Shown: positions 44,433-63,852 of the stretch, piece by piece
Layout: every line of letters starts with the position of its first letter
Position numbering within the stretch: position 1 is the stretch's first letter
From: Leptolyngbya ohadii IS1
GTDB taxonomy: Bacteria; Cyanobacteriota; Cyanobacteriia; Elainellales; Elainellaceae
Assembly (NCBI RefSeq): GCF_002215035.1
Contig: NZ_NKFP01000003.1
Location: 74,437-138,436 of the forward strand
Reading direction: 5' to 3'
DNA: 64,000 nucleotides
Notes under the pieces: model-generated
Told to the model about the DNA's origin: nothing
What the model saw: only the letters and a program-made list of their open reading frames with translations
The model's database searches: none
Program-made: the position numbers and the translations under genes

Positions 44433-44822
44433 TTAGGAATAGTACTGAGCACCCCGAGCATTGGCATGATCCACGACAGGAATCATTGCATCCTCTTCGG
44501 GCAAGGGTTCTTTGTCCAGTTGGGTTTGGAGCATCGAGCGGATGCGGCGCAGGCTGACCATGCCAAACACATTGGCACGGTGACAGGCAGCTTCCAGACG
44601 TGCTGCACTCTGAACTGCGTTTGATTTGATGCGTTCAGACCGAGTGGGTGTTTTTTCCTTTGCGCCTTCGTGACTCGTTTGCTCAGCGTTCTCGGAGTCC
44701 TTTAGAAGCACAGAAACCCGATTCATTGGAAATCCAGACGCTTTCAATTCCTCGATCGCCTGTTCTGTAATTTCACGGCTTGGGAAGATACCAATGGCAT
44801 ATTTGGATTGATCGGATGTCAT
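44433..44822 (-). CDS. General-stress-protein-17M-like protein, atypical C-terminus
   Basis: 129 aa. Residues 5-50 match the YflT/GSP17M domain (YAIGIFPSREITEQAIEELKASGFPMNRVSVLLKD), found in cyanobacterial stress proteins. Relatives continue with a Gly/Ala-rich membrane-associated stretch. Here the rest is basic and polar (RSERIKSNAVQSAARLEAACHR) and ends RGAQYYS, which may reflect an old frameshift or fusion beside the IS cluster. It is 78 nt downstream of the P-type ATPase gene, same strand. Confidence 0.6.
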   Translation of the reverse strand: MTSDQSKYAIGIFPSREITEQAIEELKASGFPMNRVSVLLKDSENAEQTSHEGAKEKTPTRSERIKSNAVQSAARLEAACHRANVFGMVSLRRIRSMLQTQLDKEPLPEEDAMIPVVDHANARGAQYYS

Positions 44823-44900: not shown

Positions 44901-47615
44901 TTATCGAATGGGGTCGAAGCGTTCTAGCAACAGGACAATGATAATAATGGGGAAACTGGCTGCGATACTAATTGCTTCCTGAGCAACCGTGACAGGAACG
45001 GTTCCAAAGAGCTGATTCATCACGCTCCACTGGCTAAAGAGTGTTTGCAGGATGACGATCGCAATCACGCCAATGGCTGGGGCATAGGCAATGCGCTGAG
45101 TCCGACCTCGCAGTCTGGCAAACAAGGAAGGAATAAACTGGCTGATGCTCAGGAGATAAAAGGTTTCTGCGGCGATCAGCGTATCGACTGCCATTGTCCG
45201 AGCCAAATCAATATTGCCCGTTGTTTCTCGCGTCCACAGAAAAGTACCGAACACAGCAATTAAATTAAATATCGAGATAATGACGATGCGCCTTGCCAGT
45301 TTAGCCGTCAGCAGCGGTTCATTGGGGTTGCGGGGCGGCACTCGCATGACGTTTTGAGATTTCGGCTCAAAGGCAAGGGGGGCAGTGAGCGTAATCGAAC
45401 TCACCATATTAATCCAGAGAATTTGCAGCGGCAGGATCGGCAAAACCGTTCCGAACAGCACCCCTACCAGAATGATCAGTGCTTCACCGCCGTTTGTTGG
45501 TAGGGTAAACCCGATCGCCTTAATCAAGTTGCGATAGACCGTTCTGCCTTCTTCGACTGCTGCTGCGATCGAGGCAAAATTATCGTCCGTCAGAATCATC
45601 GATGCGGCTTCTTTGGCAACTTCAGTTCCCGTGATGCCCATTGCAATTCCCAGATCCGCTTGCTTAAGCGCAGGAGCATCGTTCACCCCGTCTCCGGTCA
45701 TAGCAACAATTTCGCCTTTGGACTGTAATGCTTTGACCAGGCGCAGCTTTTGTTCAGGGGCAACTCGCGCAAACACCACGCCGGATTCTGCCGCCTGTGC
45801 CAGCTCTTGCTTATTCATCCGGCTCAATTCCTGTCCGGTATAGGCTTGAACTGGCTCCTGTTGACTCAACTTCATGCGGCGAGCGATCGCTGTTGCCGTC
45901 ACCGGATGATCGCCCGTAATCATCTTGATTTGAATTCCTGCGGTTTTACAGTCTCGCACTGCTGCAATGGCGGCGGCACGGGGAGGGTCAATCATGCCCT
46001 GTAATCCCAACAGCACCAGACCCTGATCGAGATCCGCATGATCCAAAGATTGCTGAGCAGCCGGAACAGTTTTTTTCGCAAACGCCAGGATGCGGAGTCC
46101 CTGCTTTGCAACCGCTTCGGCTCTGCGCTCGATTTGCTCGTAGTCCAATGGTTGAAGCTGCCCCTTTGCATCTATCTGGCGATCGCACCGCTTGAAGATT
46201 GCTTCCATTGAGCCTTTCACATAGATAACATTGCCCGCTGGAGTAGGGTGTAGCGTTGCCATGTACTGAAACTTAGAATCAAACGGAATCACCGCCAAAC
46301 GGGGCATCTCTGCTTCTACCGCTTGCCGAGTTAGTCCAGCTTTTTGTGCCGCGACAATGAGCGCGCCCTCGGTGGGATCGCCGACGATTGTGTACTGCCC
46401 GTCCTGCTCCTGCAAATGTGAATCGTTACACAGCAGCCCGGCGCGTAAACAGTCTGCCAGCGTTGGGGTAGCCGCCAAATCAACCGGCTGGTCTTCCAGG
46501 AGAATTTCGCCTTCTGGCTCGTAGCCGGTTCCCGTTACCGTATATCGCTGGTTTCCGGCATAAATGCCCTGAACCGTCATCTGATTTTCGGTCAAGGTGC
46601 CCGTTTTATCGGAACAAATCACCGTCGTACTGCCCAGCGTCTCAACGGCTGCCAGCTTTCGCATAATTGCATGGCGACGTGCCAAACGCGAAACCCCGAT
46701 CGCTAAGGTAATCGTCACGATCGCGGGTAACCCTTCGGGAATGGCAGCGACCGCAAAGGCAACGGTTGCCGTGAACACCTCGACCCAGGATTCTGTGCGC
46801 GACAGTCCTACGACAAACACCAGTGCCGCCAGCGATAGAACGACATAAAGCAGCTTTTGGCTGAACCTGCCAATTTTGCGCGTGATGGGCGTTTCGGTCG
46901 TAGTACTCTGCTCCATCATCTGGGAGATTCGACCCGTCTCGGTTTGGTTCGCGATCGCCACTACCAGACCCGTTGCCGATCCAGAAGCCACCAGACTTCC
47001 CGCATACGCCATATTCGAGCGGTCAGCGAGTGCCGTTTCTGCGCCCAGCGGCTGAGTCTCTTTCTCAACGGGAACCGATTCCCCGGTTAACCCAGATTCA
47101 TCAATGGTGAGATTGCTCGTCTGAATCAGCTGCACATCCGCAGGCACTTTATCTCCTGCCGCCAGTGAAACTAAGTCTCCAGGAACGACCTGATTAGAAG
47201 GAACGCGAATCGTTTGACCTTCGCGAATTACCGTTGCTTCTGTACTCACAGACTCCGCCAGGGCAGCAAGCGCATTTTCCGCCTTTGACTCCTGCACAAA
47301 GCCAATCAGGGCATTAAGTACGGTCACTGCAAAAATGACTCCAGATTCAACCCACTCTTGCAGAAAAGCGGTGACAACCCCGGCTGCCAGCAAAATGTAG
47401 AGCAACGGCTCATTAAACTGAAGCAGAAATCGCATCCAGGCACTTTTTCTTGGTTTCCCAATCAGTTCGTTGGGTCCGAAGCGGCTGTGTCGCTGTTGGG
47501 CTTCAACTAGGGTTAAGCCGGTTTCCAGATTGCTCTCTAGCCGCTGAGCCGTTTCCGATACCGGAAGAGAATGCCATTGCAGTTCAGATAAATTCCTCGT
47601 TGCGGTTGCTGTCAT
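44901..47615 (-). CDS. P2-type cation-transporting ATPase (PacL / calcium-pump-like)
   Basis: 904 aa, full length. Landmarks in order: N-terminal cation-ATPase domain ([14 protein letters not shown]), actuator TGES (178-181), PEGLPA in helix 4 (293-298, as in calcium pumps), phosphorylation motif CSDKTGTLT with D336, nucleotide-binding [11 protein letters not shown], hinge [22 protein letters not shown] and a C-terminal four-helix domain. PEGLPA and the overall length fit the P2A/PMR1-like group, which pump calcium or related divalent ions out of the cytoplasm, but sodium or potassium transport is also known among cyanobacterial relatives. Upstream lies a 538-bp non-coding region; downstream is the stress-protein-like gene. 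Confidence 0.95.
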
Positions 47616-55822: not shown

Positions 55823-56470
55823 CTAACGCAGCGCCAAAAACACCGTTTCAGCCTTGCCCGTGCCACGCACCGCATCTTCTGTCGCTTCAGCAACGATCTT
55901 GCCTTCCAAGACCAGATCCTCGGCTTCGCCACGCAGCACAATATCAAAGCGGTACACGGTTTCCCCATCACGCTCTTCCCGCTTGGCGAGCAAAGTCGAT
56001 CGGCGGTTTGGGGGAACACCCTGAAGCACAGGGTCAGACTCGGTGCGCGGGTCGTCCGCGAAATACATGCGCGTGATCAAAGGATGGGACACGCCGCTGG
56101 CATGGACCAACACAATGATGTGCGGCGCTTGCATCTTGTCCCCTGGGTATGGGACAGGTCCGGGCTTAATCGTTTGAAACCAGTAGTGTCCATTGGCATC
56201 GGTGCTTGTGCGACCAAAGCCGACAAAATCCGGATCGAGCGGCAAAGGTCGCTGGTCGAGCGGGTGATTGTAGCGCCCATGAGCATTGGCTTGCCAAATC
56301 TCAAGCAGCACGTTAAATAACGGATCACCGTCGCTATCGAAAACATATCCCTCGATGCGGATGTGCTCTCCCTCAGTGCCTGACTGCGTGAGGATGTTGG
56401 CTCCTTCCGGCATCATCCCCAGGCTAAAATAAGGACCGACCGTCTGTGTGGGTGTGAGATCAAGTGTCAT
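55823..56470 (-). CDS. pcaG: Protocatechuate 3,4-dioxygenase alpha subunit
   Basis: 215 aa. Intradiol dioxygenase fold: TPTQTVGPYFSLGM at the N-terminus, the IRIEGYVFDSDGDPLFNVLLEIWQ segment (split here as EIWQANAHGRYNH), FGRTSTDANGHYWF, and QAPHIIVLVHASG where the beta subunit has its iron ligands. In the alpha subunit the metal ligands are not conserved, as seen here. It forms an alpha-beta protomer with PcaH. The start overlaps the stop of pcaH by 4 nt, so the subunits are translationally coupled. Confidence 0.93.
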   Translation of the reverse strand: MTLDLTPTQTVGPYFSLGMMPEGANILTQSGTEGEHIRIEGYVFDSDGDPLFNVLLEIWQANAHGRYNHPLDQRPLPLDPDFVGFGRTSTDANGHYWFQTIKPGPVPYPGDKMQAPHIIVLVHASGVSHPLITRMYFADDPRTESDPVLQGVPPNRRSTLLAKREERDGETVYRFDIVLRGEAEDLVLEGKIVAEATEDAVRGTGKAETVFLALR

Positions 56471-57165
56471 GCGTGGACTCCTTCGTAAACACGATCGGTT
56501 TCAAAGGGTGTCGCTTGTGCTCCTCGTAGGACGATGTCGAAGCGAAAGCCCATCGCCCACCCCGGCTCGGTCAGATCGTGGTCGTAGCGGCACACAACGC
56601 GCTCCCGATCCTTCTCTGGAATCGATTGAAAGATTGTGTCAAGTGGAAACAACGGATCGCCGGGAAAGTACAGTTGGGTCACCAGTCGGGAAGCGATCGA
56701 GGGTCCCATGATCGAAAGATGAATATGAGCCGGTCGCCACTCGTTTGTTTCGTCTTTCCACGGGTAGGCACCGGGACGGATCGTGAGAAAGCGGTACACA
56801 CCCTGGTCATCGCTCATGCAGCGCCCCCGTCCCACAAAGTTTGGGTCGAGCGGTCCCTGCCACGAGTCAAATTCGTGGTTGTAGCGTCCTGCCGCGTTTG
56901 CTTGCCAGATTTCGATTATTACACCTGGAATTGGCTCGCCGTTTTCGTCAAGCACGCGACCCGTGATGACGACGCGCTGTCCGATCGCCTCAGCGCCGGT
57001 GCCAGCATTGGTAGTGAGGTCGCTTTCTTCGGGTCTAACTGGATCGATCGCCGCAAATGGCGATGTGAGTTCCGACAAGGTTAGCGGCTCATCGAGACTG
57101 GATAGGTGCGGTTCGTTCCGAGTAACCTCTTCCCACGCTTCGTAGGCATACCGTTTTTCGCTCAT
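56467..57165 (-). CDS. pcaH: Protocatechuate 3,4-dioxygenase beta subunit
   Basis: 232 aa from ATG 57165, preceded by AAGGAGGAT. Non-haem Fe(III) ligands are all present: Y95 (AAGRYNHEFD), Y134 (IRPGAYPW), H147 and H149 (RPAHIHLS). Their spacing equals Y108, Y147, H160 and H162 of the Pseudomonas enzyme. It cleaves protocatechuate between its hydroxyls to 3-carboxy-cis,cis-muconate. The usual downstream genes of the beta-ketoadipate pathway (pcaB, pcaC, pcaD, pcaIJF) are absent from the window. The operon is pcaH-pcaG-transporter. Confidence 0.95.
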   Translation of the reverse strand: MSEKRYAYEAWEEVTRNEPHLSSLDEPLTLSELTSPFAAIDPVRPEESDLTTNAGTGAEAIGQRVVITGRVLDENGEPIPGVIIEIWQANAAGRYNHEFDSWQGPLDPNFVGRGRCMSDDQGVYRFLTIRPGAYPWKDETNEWRPAHIHLSIMGPSIASRLVTQLYFPGDPLFPLDTIFQSIPEKDRERVVCRYDHDLTEPGWAMGFRFDIVLRGAQATPFETDRVYEGVHA

Positions 57166-57433
57166 TCCAATCCTCCTTACTTTAGAACTGATTCGATGGA
57201 CGTAACTGCTCAATGAACTTCTCTAACAAATAGGAGACTTTAGCTAGAAAACTTTAGCAATATCAGCTATTACGAGTTCATCTCCATAATTTCCAATCAA
57301 TTAATTTCCCTGGCGAGCAGAAACTGTTTCTGTTTTTCCTGTTTGTTGCTCATTTTCCAGTTTCCAACCAATCAACCCTTACCCACTTTGACTTCGCAAG
57401 CTTTTGTCTGGTACTTAGGTTTGGAGTAATCAG

Positions 57434-58015
57434 CTACCCATTCAGCTTTGTCACCACTGCCGCAACCTTTGCCCCGATTTTTTCGATCGCATTTTGCTGC
57501 TGCAAGTCCTTCAGTGTCCCATCTGGATTAAATGCCTCATGCGCTCTCATCACAGCAAACTGATCGGGCAAGACGAGAACTTTGATGTTGCCAAGCAGCG
57601 ATCGCAAATGCACTAAACCTCGCAATCCCCCTAAGCCTCCCGGTGATGCGCTCATAATGCCTGCTACCCTGTCGGCAAAAGCAGCTAAGGGTGGCTCATT
57701 GCCTACGGGACGCGATGCCCAGTCGATCGCATTTTTGAGCAAGGGTGTAACCGAGCTGTTATATTCTGGTGAAGCAATCAGGAAGCCTTGATGAGATTTC
57801 ATCAGTTCCTTCAGCTTCATCGCATTTTCAGGAATACCTTGTTCCGCTTCTAGGTCCTGGTCGTACAAGGGCAGTGGCAGATCGCGTAAATCCAGATAAG
57901 TGACTTCGGCTCCTACCGCTCTTGCTCCATTTGCTGCAATTTGCACAACGCGCTTATTGAACGAGTCTTTTCGGGCACTACCTGCAAACGCCAAAATTCG
58001 AGGAGAATTACTCAT
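57434..58015 (-). CDS. NADPH-dependent FMN reductase (quinone/azo/chromate-reductase type)
   Basis: 193 aa from ATG 58015; a TTG ten codons upstream is less likely. Flavodoxin-like fold: the phosphate-binding loop AGSARKDSFNKRV, DLRDLPLPLYDQD, and the FMN-binding SPEYNSSVTPLLKNAIDW. Members reduce quinones, azo dyes, chromate or iron using NAD(P)H. Its place beside pcaHG, a glutathionyl-hydroquinone reductase and a MarR gene fits a quinone/aromatic stress role (inference). No operon link to pcaH: about 270 bp separate them. Confidence 0.93.
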   Translation of the reverse strand: MSNSPRILAFAGSARKDSFNKRVVQIAANGARAVGAEVTYLDLRDLPLPLYDQDLEAEQGIPENAMKLKELMKSHQGFLIASPEYNSSVTPLLKNAIDWASRPVGNEPPLAAFADRVAGIMSASPGGLGGLRGLVHLRSLLGNIKVLVLPDQFAVMRAHEAFNPDGTLKDLQQQNAIEKIGAKVAAVVTKLNG

Positions 58016-58325
58016 AGGAGGGGCAGTCGGTAAATGTTGCTTCAATAATCAAATTTGATACCATTTGTACACATCTTGCTTAAGAGTGAAGTCAAGCTAT
58101 AGTCTGCCTAATCTGGAGACCAGTGAATAATATAAAGATTTGTAATTTGAGGAAAAACGTCTGCTCTTAATTCAGTACTTATTAGTTCTTGACTTGCTGT
58201 GTGAACAGAACTGATTCCGGTGGGCAGTTAAAACGGATGGGTACATAGCTAAACCCAATATCCCGATTGATGTAGAGGCAATCCTCACAGCACTATGCTT
58301 TGTTAATGAATCAATTTTGAGTGAG

Positions 58326-59150
58326 TTATAGACCTTTGGAAAATGCTCGTGATTTCCTGCCCGATCGTCTGGGTTGTCCAAGCGGTGAGATTGCATTCAG
58401 GAAATGCAGAGTGCGGCTGACAAATCGTTCTTCTGCGTTTTGCTCCTCACGATGTCCTAAACTCCGTAATCCGTTCAAATCCAGAAAGCTAAACACAACT
58501 TTTGAGAAAAAGGGAACGAGGCAGAACAAAAAGGTATCCACGTTCTGGTCGAACAAGCGTAAACAAGAAGTCCCTGTAATCCAGATCAGCGGATAGCAAA
58601 TCCAGGTGATGGTAAAGAAGGTCGTTAACCCGTTGTAGAAGCTGGCTAATTCCGCATCACCCCTGGTCTTGTCGCGTAGTGGTCCCCAAATGCCCCACAG
58701 TACAACTAAAAACGCTACACAGCCGATCGTGTACCACAAGTAGCGCACCCAGGGGACGTCTGAGAGGTCGGCAATTAAACCTGTAATAATGACAATCACC
58801 TGCGTTGCCATCAGAGAAAAAATAAGCGTCCAATCCTTCGATTTATGGCGATGCATTGCTGTCCAGGACAGTGCCATGAGCAGCAGCGGCGTGGTCACAA
58901 TCCAGTCGGCATAGCGAGCAAAGTGGGTGATTTGTCCGGCAATCTCGATCTTGCCCTGTTCCAGTCCATCTCCGCTAGTCGGCAACGCCATCAGCAGATA
59001 CATTAAGCCTGACCAGAGGGGAATGAAGGTGGCGACAAAGTATTCGAGCCGGGGAATGCCATGCGGATTTCGACCCAGTAGGGCAAAATAAATTGCGCCG
59101 ATCGACATCCCGCCGATATACAGCCAATGCCAAAGACTCTGCCAATCCAT
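58326..59150 (-). CDS. Microbial rhodopsin of the Anabaena sensory rhodopsin (ASR) type
   Basis: 274 aa, ATG preceded by AAGGAGAG. Seven membrane helices. Helix C reads RYADWIVTTPLLLMALSW: D82 equals bacteriorhodopsin D85 (counterion), T86 equals T89, and A93 replaces the proton donor D96. Helix G reads LVPFFSKVVFSFLDL: K217 is the retinal Schiff-base lysine, and P213 stands where most rhodopsins have the second counterion Asp, a known hallmark of ASR. The loop between helices B and C is longer than I recall for ASR (PTSGDGLEQG). ASR-type proteins are photosensors acting through a soluble tetrameric transducer; no such transducer gene is seen here. The C-terminal tail of about 45 residues is basic and cytoplasmic. 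Confidence 0.95.
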   Translation of the reverse strand: MDWQSLWHWLYIGGMSIGAIYFALLGRNPHGIPRLEYFVATFIPLWSGLMYLLMALPTSGDGLEQGKIEIAGQITHFARYADWIVTTPLLLMALSWTAMHRHKSKDWTLIFSLMATQVIVIITGLIADLSDVPWVRYLWYTIGCVAFLVVLWGIWGPLRDKTRGDAELASFYNGLTTFFTITWICYPLIWITGTSCLRLFDQNVDTFLFCLVPFFSKVVFSFLDLNGLRSLGHREEQNAEERFVSRTLHFLNAISPLGQPRRSGRKSRAFSKGL

Positions 59151-59618
59151 CCGCTATCTCTCCTTGAGAGTAAAAGTCAATCTGCAATTTTCTAAAACCG
59201 ATCGCTGTAAATTGTTGAGGTCAGGAAAGACAATCATCAGCCCCTATTTCTGTCCCCTACCTCGAAGTAATCTGTTAAGTAAACAGTAATCCTGCCTCTA
59301 TTTATTGGAGGAATCTACAAAATGTGTCTCTCAGTCTTTAACCTATCTATCAGTCACCAAGTATTAGTATTTTCTGCAAATGTGATAGAAAAGCGACAGC
59401 ATCATCGCCTTAACGCAATTAGAGGTCTTTGTTCTGTCATTTTTAAATCACATTCTGCTTTCACAGTGGAATGATGGGACGCAACACAGCGTTAATTCTT
59501 TAATTCGTCAATTTCTATGTTAAGCCTCTGGTACAACAATGCAGTGCTTGATGAAATCCTTTGGGATCGATCGCATCCCTTTCGTCCTACAGCGTGTGAG
59601 TGAAGAAGAGTCAGGACG
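59151..59618. other. Divergent intergenic region between rhodopsin and flavocytochrome genes
   Basis: 468 bp, AT-rich. It holds a candidate 50-codon ORF (59322-59474) but no clear RNA or repeat. Promoters for both divergent genes must lie here. Confidence 0.4.
59322..59474 (+). CDS. Candidate small protein, 50 aa
   Basis: ATG with a strong ribosome site (GGAGG, 59307-59311) ten nt upstream; reads MCLSVFNLSISHQVLVFSAN and ends FKSHSAFTVE. No homology recognised, no membrane helix. The composition is not obviously protein-like, so it may be chance; only the ribosome site supports it. Confidence 0.3.
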   Translation: MCLSVFNLSISHQVLVFSANVIEKRQHHRLNAIRGLCSVIFKSHSAFTVE

Positions 59619-60953
59619 ATGAGACGGCTATTGGTGCATAGTCCAGTCACGGTTGCCGCACTATGGATTGTGGCTTATCTAGCGATCACCCTGTTTCCTT
59701 TAATGGTGCTGCTGCTGTATCCACCGCCCGATCGTGGCTTCTGGATCGATTTGTCCGTTGCGCTGGGCTTTATTGCGCTGGCAATGATGGCATTGCAGTT
59801 TGTGCTGACGGCTCGCGTCAATCGCATCGAGTCTTCCTACGGCATTGACATCCTGCTTCAGTTTCACCGCTATACCTCGATCGTCGCCTTTTTCATGGTG
59901 CTGGCGCATCCGATTATTTTGTTTATCGTTGAACCTGCCACGCTGCAACTGCTCAACTTTCCCCAAGCTCCGCTGCGGGCACAACTGGCAACGATCGCAA
60001 CGCTGGCATTTCTGGCAATGGTTGTCACCACAATTTGGCGCAAGCAGCTAAAAATCCCCTATGAGTCGTGGCGAGCGTCCCACACAATTTTGGCAGTGCT
60101 GGCGGTGGGATTGGGCTTTGGACACGCCATTCTGGTGGGCAACTATCTGGGGTTGTTCTGGAAGGCAGTTTTGTGGTCAGGGATTATCCTGGTGTCACTG
60201 TGGCTCATTATCTACGTGCGGCTGGTCAAACCCTGGCTGCTAAAGAAAAAGCCCTATGTCGTTGAGGAAATTCTGCCGCAGCGAGGCGATGTTTGGACAT
60301 TAGCACTACGCCCGATCGGTCACGAAGGCTTTAACTTCCAGCCCGGTCAATTTTCCTGGCTGACGCTGAATATTACGCCCTTCAGTATGCGCGAGCATCC
60401 CTTCTCCATGTCCTCCAGCGGCGATCGTTCGGATCGCATCGAGTTTGGCATCAAGGCGATCGGGGATTTTACCAAACGGATCAAAGATTACAAGCCGGGG
60501 ACAAAGGCTTATTTGGATGGTCCCTATGGTGTGTTCACGACCGAGCGATACTGGGACACTGCTGGGTTTGTGCTGATTGCGGGTGGAGTTGGTATTACGC
60601 CGATTTACAGTATTCTCCTAACTGCCGCCGAACGAAAAGACGATCGCCCTTATTTGCTGATTTATGCTGCTCCGTCCTGGGACGATATTACTTACCGGGA
60701 AGAAATTGAGACATTAAAAGAAAAGCTGGATTTGACCGTCGTTTGCGTATTACGGAAAGCACATGATGACTGGGAAGGGGATACGGGATACGTCGATCGG
60801 GAATTGCTAGAGAAATATATTCCAATCCATCGAGGCAGTCGCCATTACTTCGTCTGTGCCGCTCCGGTGATGATGGATGCGGTTGAACGGGCATTGTTTG
60901 ACCTGGAAGTTCCCGTGACGAATGTACACATGGAACATTTTGATTTGGCATGA
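59619..60953 (+). CDS. Ferric-reductase-type flavocytochrome (FAD/NAD(P)H oxidoreductase)
   Basis: 444 aa. Six membrane helices in the first about 215 residues, with histidines suited to b-type haem binding (QFHRYTSIVAFFMVLAHP, RASHTILAVLAV, GFGHAILVGN). A cytoplasmic ferredoxin-reductase-like part follows: FAD motif REHPFSMSSS, LDGPYGVFTTE, the NAD(P) loop AGGVGITPIYSIL, and a late YFVCAAPVMMDAVE. The enzyme passes electrons from NAD(P)H across the membrane, typically to reduce iron or oxygen. It is divergent from the rhodopsin gene; shared regulation is possible but unproven. Confidence 0.92.
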   Translation: MRRLLVHSPVTVAALWIVAYLAITLFPLMVLLLYPPPDRGFWIDLSVALGFIALAMMALQFVLTARVNRIESSYGIDILLQFHRYTSIVAFFMVLAHPIILFIVEPATLQLLNFPQAPLRAQLATIATLAFLAMVVTTIWRKQLKIPYESWRASHTILAVLAVGLGFGHAILVGNYLGLFWKAVLWSGIILVSLWLIIYVRLVKPWLLKKKPYVVEEILPQRGDVWTLALRPIGHEGFNFQPGQFSWLTLNITPFSMREHPFSMSSSGDRSDRIEFGIKAIGDFTKRIKDYKPGTKAYLDGPYGVFTTERYWDTAGFVLIAGGVGITPIYSILLTAAERKDDRPYLLIYAAPSWDDITYREEIETLKEKLDLTVVCVLRKAHDDWEGDTGYVDRELLEKYIPIHRGSRHYFVCAAPVMMDAVERALFDLEVPVTNVHMEHFDLA

Positions 60954-61002
60954 TGGGTGAGTGGATGGGTGGATGAGTGGATGAGTAGATGAGTGGATGG
61001 GG
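60952..61002. repeat. Imperfect tandem repeats of GTGGATGA/GATGGGTG
   Basis: About six iterations of an 8-bp unit (gtggatgg, gtggatga, gtagatga and similar) start at the stop codon of the flavocytochrome gene. Simple-sequence repeat, prone to slippage. Confidence 0.7.
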
Positions 61003-61030
61003 AATTTGGAGAGGTCGGAGTTAGGGTTTT

Positions 61031-61180
61031 ATGCGTTACAGTATTATGCTGCAAATTGTCGCAGGCACAACGGTTGTTTTAGTGGGAGCCGCTGCTTTAT
61101 TTGCCTGGATTCAGAATCGATCGACTGAGGTTCGCAGTCAGTCTGACTCAACGCGATCGGAGCTTTTAACAGTCCGTTAA
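61031..61180 (+). CDS. Small single-helix membrane protein, 49 aa
   Basis: ATG 61031 to TAA 61180. One hydrophobic helix (residues 5-26, IMLQIVAGTTVVLVGAAALF) followed by a polar tail (NRSTEVRSQSDSTRSELLT). It lies about 77 nt after the flavocytochrome stop on the same strand and might be expressed with it. No family recognised; the clean helix-tail pattern favours a real gene. Confidence 0.5.
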   Translation: MRYSIMLQIVAGTTVVLVGAAALFAWIQNRSTEVRSQSDSTRSELLTVR

Positions 61181-61188
61181 TCCTTCCG

Positions 61189-61608
61189 TTAATCCCGGAT
61201 ACGGTAGCTGGCTAATCTTCGCACAGCGTCAGTTGTTACGCCTAGCTTCTGGGCGATCGCGGCTTCAACCTGAGGAACTTCTGTCACCGGAAACTCATAC
61301 CTCATTTCCCTCGTGGCTGGATCGTCGATGCTGACTGAAACTGCTGTTGTTCCCTGTTGACGATCGATCGCGACGTTGATTGCCAAAATTGTTGCCTGGG
61401 AATTGGTCACTGATTGCGTATCTGCCTGAAGGGTATCCCTGGAAGGGTAGGAACGCGTTAAAACCTGGGTGGCGATCGTGTTGCCCACAATCCAAAACAA
61501 TAGGGCAATGATCGGCAAGGGTAGCCAGAACTCCCAGCCAGAACGATACAGAACTTTCAGAACACGCAGAATTATCCTTAGAGGTTGAGTGTTTTGGCAA
61601 TGTAGCAA
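61189..61608 (-). CDS. Single-span membrane protein with extracytoplasmic domain, unknown
   Basis: 139 aa if started at TTG 61608. The open frame continues to 61863, but that part is the antisense shadow of the response regulator. One membrane helix (about 23-42, WEFWLPLPIIALLFWIVG) precedes an approximately 95-residue domain (NSQATILAINVAIDRQQG, AIAQKLGVTTDAVRRLASYR). Divergent from the regulator at 61754, 145 nt apart. Its C-terminus resembles small periplasmic sensor-accessory proteins only in general character; no family assigned. Confidence 0.6.
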   Translation of the reverse strand: MLHCQNTQPLRIILRVLKVLYRSGWEFWLPLPIIALLFWIVGNTIATQVLTRSYPSRDTLQADTQSVTNSQATILAINVAIDRQQGTTAVSVSIDDPATREMRYEFPVTEVPQVEAAIAQKLGVTTDAVRRLASYRIRD

Positions 61609-61753
61609 CTCTATCTTAGGGAGAAGATTGTTTGATTGAATCCTACCTCTGGAGGACGCTTGACCTTTCTCCCACCGCTTAAGCTGGGATGATATTGTGG
61701 AGGCGATCGCGGAAAAATACCAGCAAGCCTGACAGACCGTAGAGGAAAGGGAA

Positions 61754-62434
61754 ATGCGGATTTTACTGGTCGAAGACGATGCCGCCCAACTGGAACCGCT
61801 GCAAGCCGCTCTTTCGGAGGTCGGGCACATTGTGGACGGGAGTGCAGGACGGGGCGATCGCACAATGGATGCTGACGCAGCGGGAGTATGATCTGCTGAT
61901 TCTGGATTGGCTGTTGCCCCAGGTGAGTGGACTAAAGCTGTGCCAGCAGTATCGCAATCTGGGCAAAACTGCGCCTGTCCTCATGCTAACTGCGAAAGAT
62001 GCCATTGCCGATCGCATTAGTGGCTTGGATGCAGGGGCAGACGATTATCTGGTCAAACCTGCCGATGTGTTTGAACTCCTGGCGCGGGTACGGGCACTGG
62101 GACGACGATCGCCCCTCTGGACAGGGGATACCCTTCACTTGAAGACCTGACGCTTAACCTGCAAACTATGACGCTGGAACGAGGAGATTGCAGCAATCAG
62201 CTTTCGACCCGCGAGTTTCAGTTTTTAGAATATCTGATGCGCCATCCGCGTCAGGTGCTGTCCCGCGATCAGATCGAGCAGGCTTTGTGGGAATGGGGCA
62301 GCGAACCCGAAAGCAATGCCGTCACTTCTCTGGTGCGTCGGGTACGGCAGCGGTTGCAAACGGTGGGTGTTGCCTACTGGCTCGAAACGGTGTACGGCAT
62401 GGGATACTGCCTTAATCCCGATGTTCAATCGTAG
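61754..62434 (+). pseudogene. OmpR-type response regulator with two compensating frameshifts
   Basis: The full protein can be read only in three pieces. Frame A from ATG 61754: MRILLVEDDAAQLEPLQ up to HIVDG. Frame B from about 61841: VQDGAIAQWMLTQREYDLLI, LDWLLPQVSGLKL with the phosphoacceptor Asp, YLVKPADVFELL, to 62141. Frame A again: DLTLNLQT to the winged helix (LSTREFQFLEYLM, SRDQIEQALW, VYGMGYCLN). An extra base near 61838-61841 and a missing G near 62141 explain the shifts. Without them it would be a normal regulator of about 226 aa. The kinase gene overlaps its end by 14 nt and is intact. Confidence 0.85.
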
Positions 62435-63677
62435 CCGCCGAAACTTCGCCCACTGGTTTACGCTGTCGATGGGCAGCATTCTGATTCTGTTTGCCGGAAT
62501 GGTCTACTATCAGTGGGCAGTGGTACGACTGGAGGAGAGCGATCGCCTCTTGTATCGAAAAGCCCGCATCATGGCAGCGAATGTATACTACGATCCGCGC
62601 CAGGGTGAGGAGTCGATCGATTTAGACAATGTGCCGATTTTGGGTAACTACTCGCTGCCGCTGGGCAATGAGATTACCTATGCTCGCTGGTATTCTACTG
62701 GGGGTCAGTTGCGTCAGTTTTACGGCACACCAGTTCCAGCAAAGCTACAGACTACCGCCGCCTTTGAGACGATTCAAACCGCTCCCCAATGGCTGCGGCA
62801 AATTACCCTACCCGTTCAACAGGGGGGACAGACGATCGGCTATCTCCAGGTTGCTGTTCCTCTCACCGATGCTCAAGCTGCACTGAGGGAAGTCCTACTC
62901 GTCTTTGTTCTTGCCGTACCCCTCACCCTGGGAGCGATCGCCCTGGTGGGATGGTATCTGGGTGGGCGAGCCATGCACCCGATTCGGGAATCCTACCTGC
63001 AACTCCAGCGGTTTACCTCCGATGCTTCCCATGAGCTACGTGCGCCTGTCGCAGCGATTCTCAGTAACGCCCAGGTGGGCTTGATGAGTCCCATCGATCA
63101 GGGACAGCCCAAACATAAGCGGCTAGAGAACATTGCGGAAACGGCAAAGCGAATGAATACACTGGTGAACAATTTGCTATTTCTAGCACGACAGGCAGGA
63201 CGAATTGATCCCGTTTCAATTCAGCCGATCGACTTGAATACATTGCTGAAAGAAATGATCGATTTTCCATCAATTCAGGCAATGGCTCAACACCTCACCC
63301 TGCATCTGGAACTACCTGAAGAAAAAGTGATCGTGAACGGCAATGCAGATTTGTTGCGACAAGCTGTTGTGAATTTAATTGCAAATGCGTGTAAATATAC
63401 GTCTGCGAATGGAAAAGTCTGGCTGCGATTGATCGATCGCGATTACGATGTCCTTATTCAAGTCGAAGATACTGGGGTTGGTATTCCCCAATCTGATCTA
63501 CCGCATATCTTCGATCGCTTCTATCGGGTGAATCAGGAGCGAACCAGGGAAACGGGGGGATCAGGGCTGGGATTAGCGATCGCTAAACAGATCGTAGAGG
63601 CACACGGTGGACGACTCGCAGTGACAAGTCAGGTCGGTCAGGGTTCTTTATTCCAGATGGAATTGCTGCCCTCTTAG
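62421..63677 (+). CDS. Sensor histidine kinase of an OmpR-type pair (RppB/NrsS-like)
   Basis: 418 aa from ATG 62421, overlapping the regulator by 14 nt. Two membrane helices (about 13-31 and 156-180) enclose an approximately 120-residue periplasmic sensor; then HisKA with H204 (SDASHELRAPVAAILSNAQV), a HATPase domain with N box, DTGVGIPQ and GGSGLGLAIAKQIVEAHGG. The overall layout resembles the Synechocystis RppB/NrsS kinases that respond to redox state or nickel. Its cognate regulator carries frameshifts, so the signalling output may be lost unless those are sequencing errors. Confidence 0.92.
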   Translation: MFNRSRRNFAHWFTLSMGSILILFAGMVYYQWAVVRLEESDRLLYRKARIMAANVYYDPRQGEESIDLDNVPILGNYSLPLGNEITYARWYSTGGQLRQFYGTPVPAKLQTTAAFETIQTAPQWLRQITLPVQQGGQTIGYLQVAVPLTDAQAALREVLLVFVLAVPLTLGAIALVGWYLGGRAMHPIRESYLQLQRFTSDASHELRAPVAAILSNAQVGLMSPIDQGQPKHKRLENIAETAKRMNTLVNNLLFLARQAGRIDPVSIQPIDLNTLLKEMIDFPSIQAMAQHLTLHLELPEEKVIVNGNADLLRQAVVNLIANACKYTSANGKVWLRLIDRDYDVLIQVEDTGVGIPQSDLPHIFDRFYRVNQERTRETGGSGLGLAIAKQIVEAHGGRLAVTSQVGQGSLFQMELLPS

Positions 63678-63687
63678 CAATTATTCA

Positions 63688-63852
63688 GGCTTCACAGCTA
63701 TTCGTACAACCGGAAGTGGATTGGGAATGGCAGTCGTAAAAAAATGTTTAGATCTCCATCAAGGAGAACTCCTGCTAAACAGCAAGGTTGGAGTAGGCAC
63801 AGTATTTACAATCAAAATATCGCTGCCAAATGGAGTTGGTTTGCTGCCGTAA
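63688..63852 (+). pseudogene. Histidine-kinase HATPase C-terminal fragment
   Basis: About 55 codons read GFTAIRTTGSGLGMAVVKKC, HQGELLL and VGVGTVFTIKISLP before a TAA: the G2-box end of a HATPase domain, not homologous in detail to the kinase just upstream. No catalytic or sensor part precedes it, so it is a stray 3' remnant. Confidence 0.6.

Follow-up and report, generated by a model that had tools for sequence, protein, structure and literature searches.

The window, as the whole analysed stretch of 64,000 nucleotides is called here, covers positions 74437-138436 of contig C3 of the host genome (G000), a 7.9-Mb assembly of eight contigs that scored 100% complete. In a plasmid test of the contig, the first and last 5 kb showed no overlap and both ends contained repeats and N. 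The window includes a gene that, judged from its sequence, almost certainly encodes a retinal-binding protein of the Anabaena sensory rhodopsin (ASR) type of a cyanobacterium. This gene and the features surrounding it are given in Table 1; no Rfam match at gathering score was found in positions 57400-63700.

Table 1. The opsin gene and surrounding features, with positions counted from the first nucleotide of the window.
Feature	Position	Strand	Remarks
Protein weakly like YflT-type stress proteins	44433..44822	-	19 bits, cut-off 26.2; not flagged by tblastn
Cation-transporting P-type ATPase	44901..47615	-	Best models Ca-type, below cut-off; 11.5 kb from the opsin
FMN reductase family protein, downstream of the opsin	57434..58045	-	PF03358; not found beside other opsins
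ASR-type opsin, 274 aa	58326..59150	-	Uninterrupted ORF; Pfam, solved-structure search, alignment and tree
Intergenic region, 468 bp, between the divergent opsin and reductase genes	59151..59618	.	No repeats of 12 or more found in this region
Ferric-reductase-like flavocytochrome (FR)	59619..60953	+	Ferric_reduct + FAD_binding_8 + NAD_binding_1; recurrent opsin neighbour
Small protein with hydrophobic stretch (membrane location by eye)	61189..61563	-	Conserved alongside the two-component pair; no Pfam or NCBIfam match
RppA-like OmpR-type response regulator	61754..62434	+	Frame interrupted in the assembly
RppB-like histidine kinase	62421..63677	+	HisKA + HATPase_c; 301 bits to the RppB model

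On the downstream side of the opsin the surroundings agree with an earlier note on this DNA: no gene was seen in 58046-58325, the 280 bp described there as empty, and the next gene belongs to the FMN reductase family. Further downstream, positions 55823-57213 hold two protocatechuate 3,4-dioxygenase-type proteins, of which one narrowly misses the cut-off of the beta model and the other passes that of the alpha model; such proteins are unusual in a cyanobacterium. The FMN reductase and the dioxygenase pair were both rejected as opsin partners, as neither had a match beside other opsins.

The upstream genes at 59619-63677 were absent from the earlier note, as was the second opsin copy of the genome, which lies outside the window. 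The regulator gene gives a proper reading frame only when two compensating frame changes are bridged; these are either an assembly error or a recent lesion. Its orthologue at another locus (L111), 81-84% identical to the pieces of the interrupted gene, scored 262.5 against the RppA model cut-off of 250. The window kinase stays below the cut-off of the RppB model (301.1 against 400 bits), and the three kinases scored on this model gave 296-330 bits. For the small protein a 'PepSY-like' identity, guessed by eye, was abandoned because no Pfam family supported it, and a second supposed YflT protein from 63870 onward was dropped for want of a Pfam match. The family of the P-type ATPase recurs beside ASR-type opsins.

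The opsin scored 187.7 bits against Pfam Bac_rhodopsin (cut-off 24.6). Its best solved relative was ASR (1xio) with 323.8 bits, followed by BcXeR with 174; the remaining solved chains, among those listed, gave at most 98.1 bits. The window protein is identical to ASR at 150 of 267 positions (56%). The residues D82, T86, A93, P213 and K217 stand at the positions that the earlier note had named, and the alignment matched them to D75, T79, S86, P206 and K210 of ASR. They include the Asp counterion (D82), the retinal Lys (K217) and a Pro replacing the second counterion Asp (P213); E36 (ASR Glu36) and D224 (ASR D217) are also present. Four of these residues did not vary among the 43 ASR-like rows aligned, namely the counterion Asp, the Pro that replaces the second counterion, the retinal Lys and Glu36; the position of ASR Asp217 had Asp in 41 rows and Glu in two, and the position of ASR Ser86 had Ala in 29 (as in the window copy), Ser in 13 and Thr in one. 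Measured from PxWSG to ARY, the B-C loop is 33 residues long, compared to 26 in ASR (+7) and 31-33 in those relatives of the same subclade where the motifs were found, which confirms the lengthening suspected earlier. Also the long basic C-terminal tail of the earlier note is present, with 42 residues, nine of them R/K, and an Arg-rich composition; the tail has at least 33 residues in 32 of 42 family rows, counted without BcXeR, a trimmed piece. A structure model built from seven sequences (mean pLDDT 59) has seven helices and a low-confidence tail helix at residues 239-253.

The earlier note had suggested an opsin tree with ASR. In the tree constructed carefully of 45 rows, in which BcXeR, the opsin of G141 and a third opsin of the host served as outsiders, all on long branches, and outward pumps were not among the rows, the window opsin groups with ASR: it belongs to a strongly supported (100/99) long-loop subclade within the cyanobacterial ASR clade. 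The ASR-type assignment of the earlier note is thus borne out by residues, search scores and tree. Sensor and pump are not distinguishable by sequence. The opsin itself adds a member to an already known class.

The sister of the window opsin is the second copy in the same genome (C1:1407598-1408419), with 93% identical protein and 86% identical DNA, the DNA similarity being limited to the gene and a few preceding bases. The two copies differ by 20 residues, including A81C and A93S in helix C and T194P, and the dN/dS between them, 0.046, indicates that both are kept by purifying selection. FR and the kinase also have close copies on contig C1 (95% and 85%); the three copies lie in three distant places, the C1 kinase having a regulator gene beside it, and the C1 opsin has neither FR nor an RppA/RppB-like pair alongside. 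At the C1 opsin locus (L008 1-16001, G000:C1 1399000-1415000), two MscS-type channels occur 4-8 kb off, and a divergent gene codes for a regulator of 661 aa that combines three receiver domains with a DNA-binding domain and an Hpt domain. The nearest opsins outside the genome belong to another family, f16 (79-87% identity), and the opsins of a genome of the same genus, G026, are only 63% identical to the window opsin. A quick tree places the neighbouring FR among genomes of f1, the family to which the host itself belongs, so the histories of the two adjacent genes differ, either by transfer or by hidden paralogy.

The third opsin of the host (L003 1438-2148, on G000:C4) has Synechocystis halorhodopsin as the nearest solved chain (289 bits), Thr/Ser/Thr at the three helix-C motif places, and adjoining urease accessory genes (named by eye). 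The tree also contained a short-tailed cyanobacterial ASR-like clade of eight rows (L029, L030, L037, L057, L077, L078, L080 and L081; support 99/95). Five opsins of this clade (wider loci L114, L115, L118, L123 and L129) share the gene order YflT, P-type ATPase, opsin, small protein and RppA/RppB-like pair. The rows L077 and L078, both of genome G270, carry Glu where ASR has Asp217, and since engineered ASR D217E moves protons inward according to a passage of PMC5118547, they are natural candidates for inward transport. Broken copies were present as well: L012, L042 and L091 (one genome, same gene) have an early in-frame stop, and the opsin L135 has lost its second half next to a reductase gene.

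The transducer ASRT was searched for with PF07100, which gave the expected control match in Thermotoga maritima and none in the complete-scored host genome. The missing transducer gene of the earlier note hence extends to the genome level, and signalling through a distant ASRT, which it had offered as one alternative, found no candidate. Among the 388 cyanobacterial genomes surveyed, 40 passed the opsin threshold (E 1e-30) and 39 were kept, some of these with only broken or cut copies (G012, G052 and G140); G141 was dropped because of Asp at the Pro place and 33% identity. ASRT was present in 15 of the 388 genomes, seven of them with an opsin, and 32 of the 39 opsin-bearing genomes had none. 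The absence that the earlier note had presented as remarkable is thus ordinary among the relatives of the window opsin, and it had been published in 2011: the available text of PMC3198991 states that ASRT was found in no other xenorhodopsin genome, and that of PMC2739507 that rhodopsin-ASRT linkage was seen only in Nostoc.

In six of the seven genomes with both genes, opsin and ASRT are on different contigs, and in one (G059) they are 2.65 Mb apart. The full-length opsin copies of the six are at least 7.8 kb from contig ends, which excludes close linkage, not distant linkage. No linked opsin-ASRT pair was found in the 388 genomes or in the 63 genomes of family f13; the opsin tree includes no row near-identical to the Anabaena PCC 7120 protein, and the known operon is hence no positive control here. 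ASRT was nevertheless enriched with the opsin, both overall (7/39 vs 8/349, p 2e-4) and within f13 (5/15 vs 4/48, p 0.03), related genomes being treated as independent in both tests, and therefore an unlinked ASRT may have a role in those species. For the window opsin, signalling through an ASRT encoded elsewhere would be modelled on these seven genomes, and with no PF07100 match in the host, an assembly gap or a too remote homologue aside, it is extremely improbable. The earlier note was also correct that the window has no carotenoid oxygenase; the host genome has four RPE65-type oxygenases (PF03055), all on other contigs, of which at least one could make retinal.

The idea of the earlier note that the opsin may signal through another partner raised the right question, and the candidates lie upstream, where it had not looked. 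The surroundings of 47 opsin loci (694 kb), including several copies per genome and broken or cut copies, were compared with 38 control loci (711 kb) chosen arbitrarily in genomes that carry an opsin; the controls were hand-placed at round coordinates on long contigs, one covering just 8.2 kb. Protein clustering found the kinase at 13 opsin loci, FR at 12, the P-type ATPase and the small protein at 11 each, AI-2E at nine, the YflT-type protein at six, an NhaP-type antiporter at five, and MgtE and DUF389 at four each, and none of these at any control locus. The OmpR-type regulator cluster, which mixes RppA-like and other OmpR-type regulators, was divided 13:1 between opsin and control loci; a count restricted to regulators with 55% identity or more to the RppA-like one gave 13:0. 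The clustering list also included smaller clusters of three to four opsin loci each. Three or more control loci were reached by a single cluster, an ABC ATPase (named by eye), which had two opsin and five control loci.

With fixed queries, FR was detected at 13 opsin loci (one a fragment), the small protein at 15, the RppA-like regulator at 13, the kinase at 14 (one a weak partial match), the P-type ATPase at 13 and AI-2E at ten. At least one listed family was present at 32 of the 47 opsin loci and at one of the 38 control loci, a comparison that is partly circular because the families were picked as recurring at opsin loci; the clustering is the fairer one, since a cluster of control loci could have shown there. 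At the remaining 15 opsin loci every listed family was missing. Short contigs are involved in some of these cases, but six loci (L099, L100, L121, L122, L124 and L134) extend about 9 kb to either side. Opsin and FR are at most 10 kb apart in 11 of the 29 genomes having both; G013, whose opsin is partial, is a further case.

Gene orders and strands vary between lineages while the linkage stays. On the opsin tree, the minimum number of changes was four for FR linkage, five for the two-component pair, nine for the P-type ATPase and five for AI-2E, counts that do not separate gains from losses; such repeated changes indicate that the neighbourhood is not one block inherited unbroken. At the FR loci of 20 opsin-less genomes, the two-component pair was present at three, AI-2E at one, an opsin fragment at one and the P-type ATPase at none. 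FR and the pair may thus form an independent module, to which opsins are added.

Co-occurrence across the genomes points in the same direction. With thresholds of E 1e-80 for FR (63/388 genomes) and E 1e-75 for the RppA-like regulator (110/388), FR was present in 29 of the 39 opsin genomes vs 34 of the 349 others (p 4e-18), and the regulator in 36 vs 74 (p 7e-19); these p-values overstate the association, because the genomes are related, treated as independent and different in size. Within f13 the proportions were 14/15 vs 8/48 for FR (four of these 48, among the 63 f13 genomes, being outside the FR search) and 14/15 vs 13/44 for the regulator, and within the host's order 9/13 vs 6/23 and 12/13 vs 13/23, respectively. 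Linkage is the stronger sign of the two. RppA-like regulators are widespread, as the 74 opsin-less genomes show, which counts against specific coupling.

These distributions also bear on the view that the region is a general stress island of large cyanobacterial genomes, where the opsin lies by chance or by shared regulation and is coupled to nothing. The 3/20 FR loci with the pair and no opsin and the 15 bare opsin loci speak for such an island, and it may be that opsin, FR and RppA-like genes all belong to the accessory gene set of larger genomes. Against it, arbitrary regions of opsin genomes are nearly empty of these genes (the 1/38, for families picked from the opsin loci), linkage persists through changes of gene order, and in the host an opsin of the f16 type stands beside an FR of the f1 type, as if the place had been refilled. 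All in all, we regard the stress island as unlikely.

To our knowledge, the function of ASR in the cell remains unsettled, attention having been mainly on ASRT. PMC3198991 states that, as of 2011, no role in the living cell had been demonstrated, and mentions a two-component system near the gene of Cyanothece PCC 7424. A publication describing a conserved neighbourhood of reductase, two-component and ion-transport genes was not found among the open-licence papers listed.

Gene context suggests that the window opsin may be an ASR-type photosensor that works with a neighbourhood of redox, iron and ion homeostasis, a reading that we hold to be as probable as its opposite; likewise, the odds that the opsin is functionally coupled with the adjoining redox and two-component genes appear about even. 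Light would switch the chromophore as in ASR, the cytoplasmic face of the opsin and its tail would hand the signal on to the kinase or the corresponding regulator, and the output of these would adjust redox/iron and ion-transport functions to light. The direct step from opsin to kinase is a guess, and a doubtful one. More widely, and quite tentatively, cyanobacterial ASR-type opsins could be the light input of an undescribed photosignalling unit, made up of opsin, FR, small membrane protein and RppA/RppB-like pair, which would tie light to iron/redox and ion transport; the ASR-ASRT operon of Anabaena would then be an exception and not the model.

The iron link of the neighbourhood fits published observations on Anabaena asr, for which a passage of PMC4005646 reports FurA sites and strong induction under iron limitation. 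PMC13421787 describes RppA as activating carotenoid genes and repressing chlorophyll genes, its kinase being Hik2 or RppB; a light sensor teamed with a reductase and a regulator of the RppA type would join light to the iron/redox state. In Synechocystis, according to the same source, RppB responds to heavy metals such as nickel, and a passage of PMC4751278 reports that it has no role in photosynthesis gene control, both of which count against the proposal. So do the bare opsin loci (15/47), the C1 paralogue lacking FR and the pair, the interrupted frame of the regulator, and the Synechocystis RppA motif, which showed no excess in the window (19 matches vs 25.6 expected).

The main rival of the photosensor reading is a light-driven inward proton transporter of the xenorhodopsin type working with the surrounding ion transporters, which would then serve pH or ion balance and not signalling. 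Inward pumping is described for PoXeR, NsXeR and BcXeR, and a Pro replacing the second counterion characterises their class (passages of PMC5118547 and PMC13093656); the window copy also has Ala at ASR S86, the residue found in BcXeR. P-type ATPases, AI-2E, Na+/H+ antiporters and MgtE recur around ASR-type opsins, and Na+/H+ antiporters are mentioned in PMC3198991, in the part available, beside the Nanohaloarchaeal genes. However, wild-type ASR, the nearest characterised protein, is photochromic and moves no ions according to the text seen of PMC5118547, and the long Arg-rich tail, named in a published passage as a difference between ASR and PoXeR, is present in the window protein. The Asp instead of Glu at ASR D217 speaks in the same direction, yet PoXeR also has Asp there, which makes the residue compatible with pumping. 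We consider inward transport rather unlikely for the window opsin. The direction of inner proton movement in ASR depends on the C-tail, as reported in a passage of PMC3267196, and the window opsin keeps an ASR-like tail.

The earlier note had also raised the tail as a means of signalling. The opsin might then act free of partners, the Arg-rich tail itself regulating promoters in a light-dependent manner, as ASR reportedly does in E. coli according to a claim by Irieda from 2012. The length of the tail in most family rows (at least 33 residues in the 32 of 42) and the helix modelled, with low confidence, at residues 239-253 would suit such action, but five of nine short-tailed relatives (G026, G016, G055, G223 and G358) have the same two-component neighbours. 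This reading seems quite improbable.

The survey makes ASRT a poor general candidate for the partner of these opsins. The reductase, the two-component pair and the ion transporters recur across distant opsin lineages, and each of them is a candidate, open to experimental test, for a function under the control of this light sensor, which is still poorly understood.

Compared with ASR (1xio), the window opsin has the same chromophore-site residues, the cytoplasmic Glu36/Asp217 pair, a similar tail segment and an Arg-rich end, while it differs in its 56% identity, the B-C loop longer by seven residues, Ala for Ser86, Ala for Ile74, and a genomic setting with FR and the RppA/RppB-like pair and without ASRT. 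With the xenorhodopsin pumps (BcXeR 7zmy, PoXeR and NsXeR) it shares the Pro at the second counterion place, the Asp counterion and an Asp near the cytoplasmic end of helix G; however, it is much closer to ASR than to BcXeR (324 vs 174 bits), and PoXeR lacks the long Arg-rich tail. With the halorhodopsins of Synechocystis and Mastigocladopsis, near which the third opsin of the host belongs, only the fold family is shared, as the window opsin has Asp and not Thr as the counterion and Pro and not Asp at the second place. The two-component pair resembles RppA/RppB of Synechocystis in consisting of an OmpR-type regulator, whose L111 orthologue passes the RppA model, and a histidine kinase, whereas the kinases fall below the RppB cut-off and the pair here is accompanied by an unnamed small protein and recurs near opsins.
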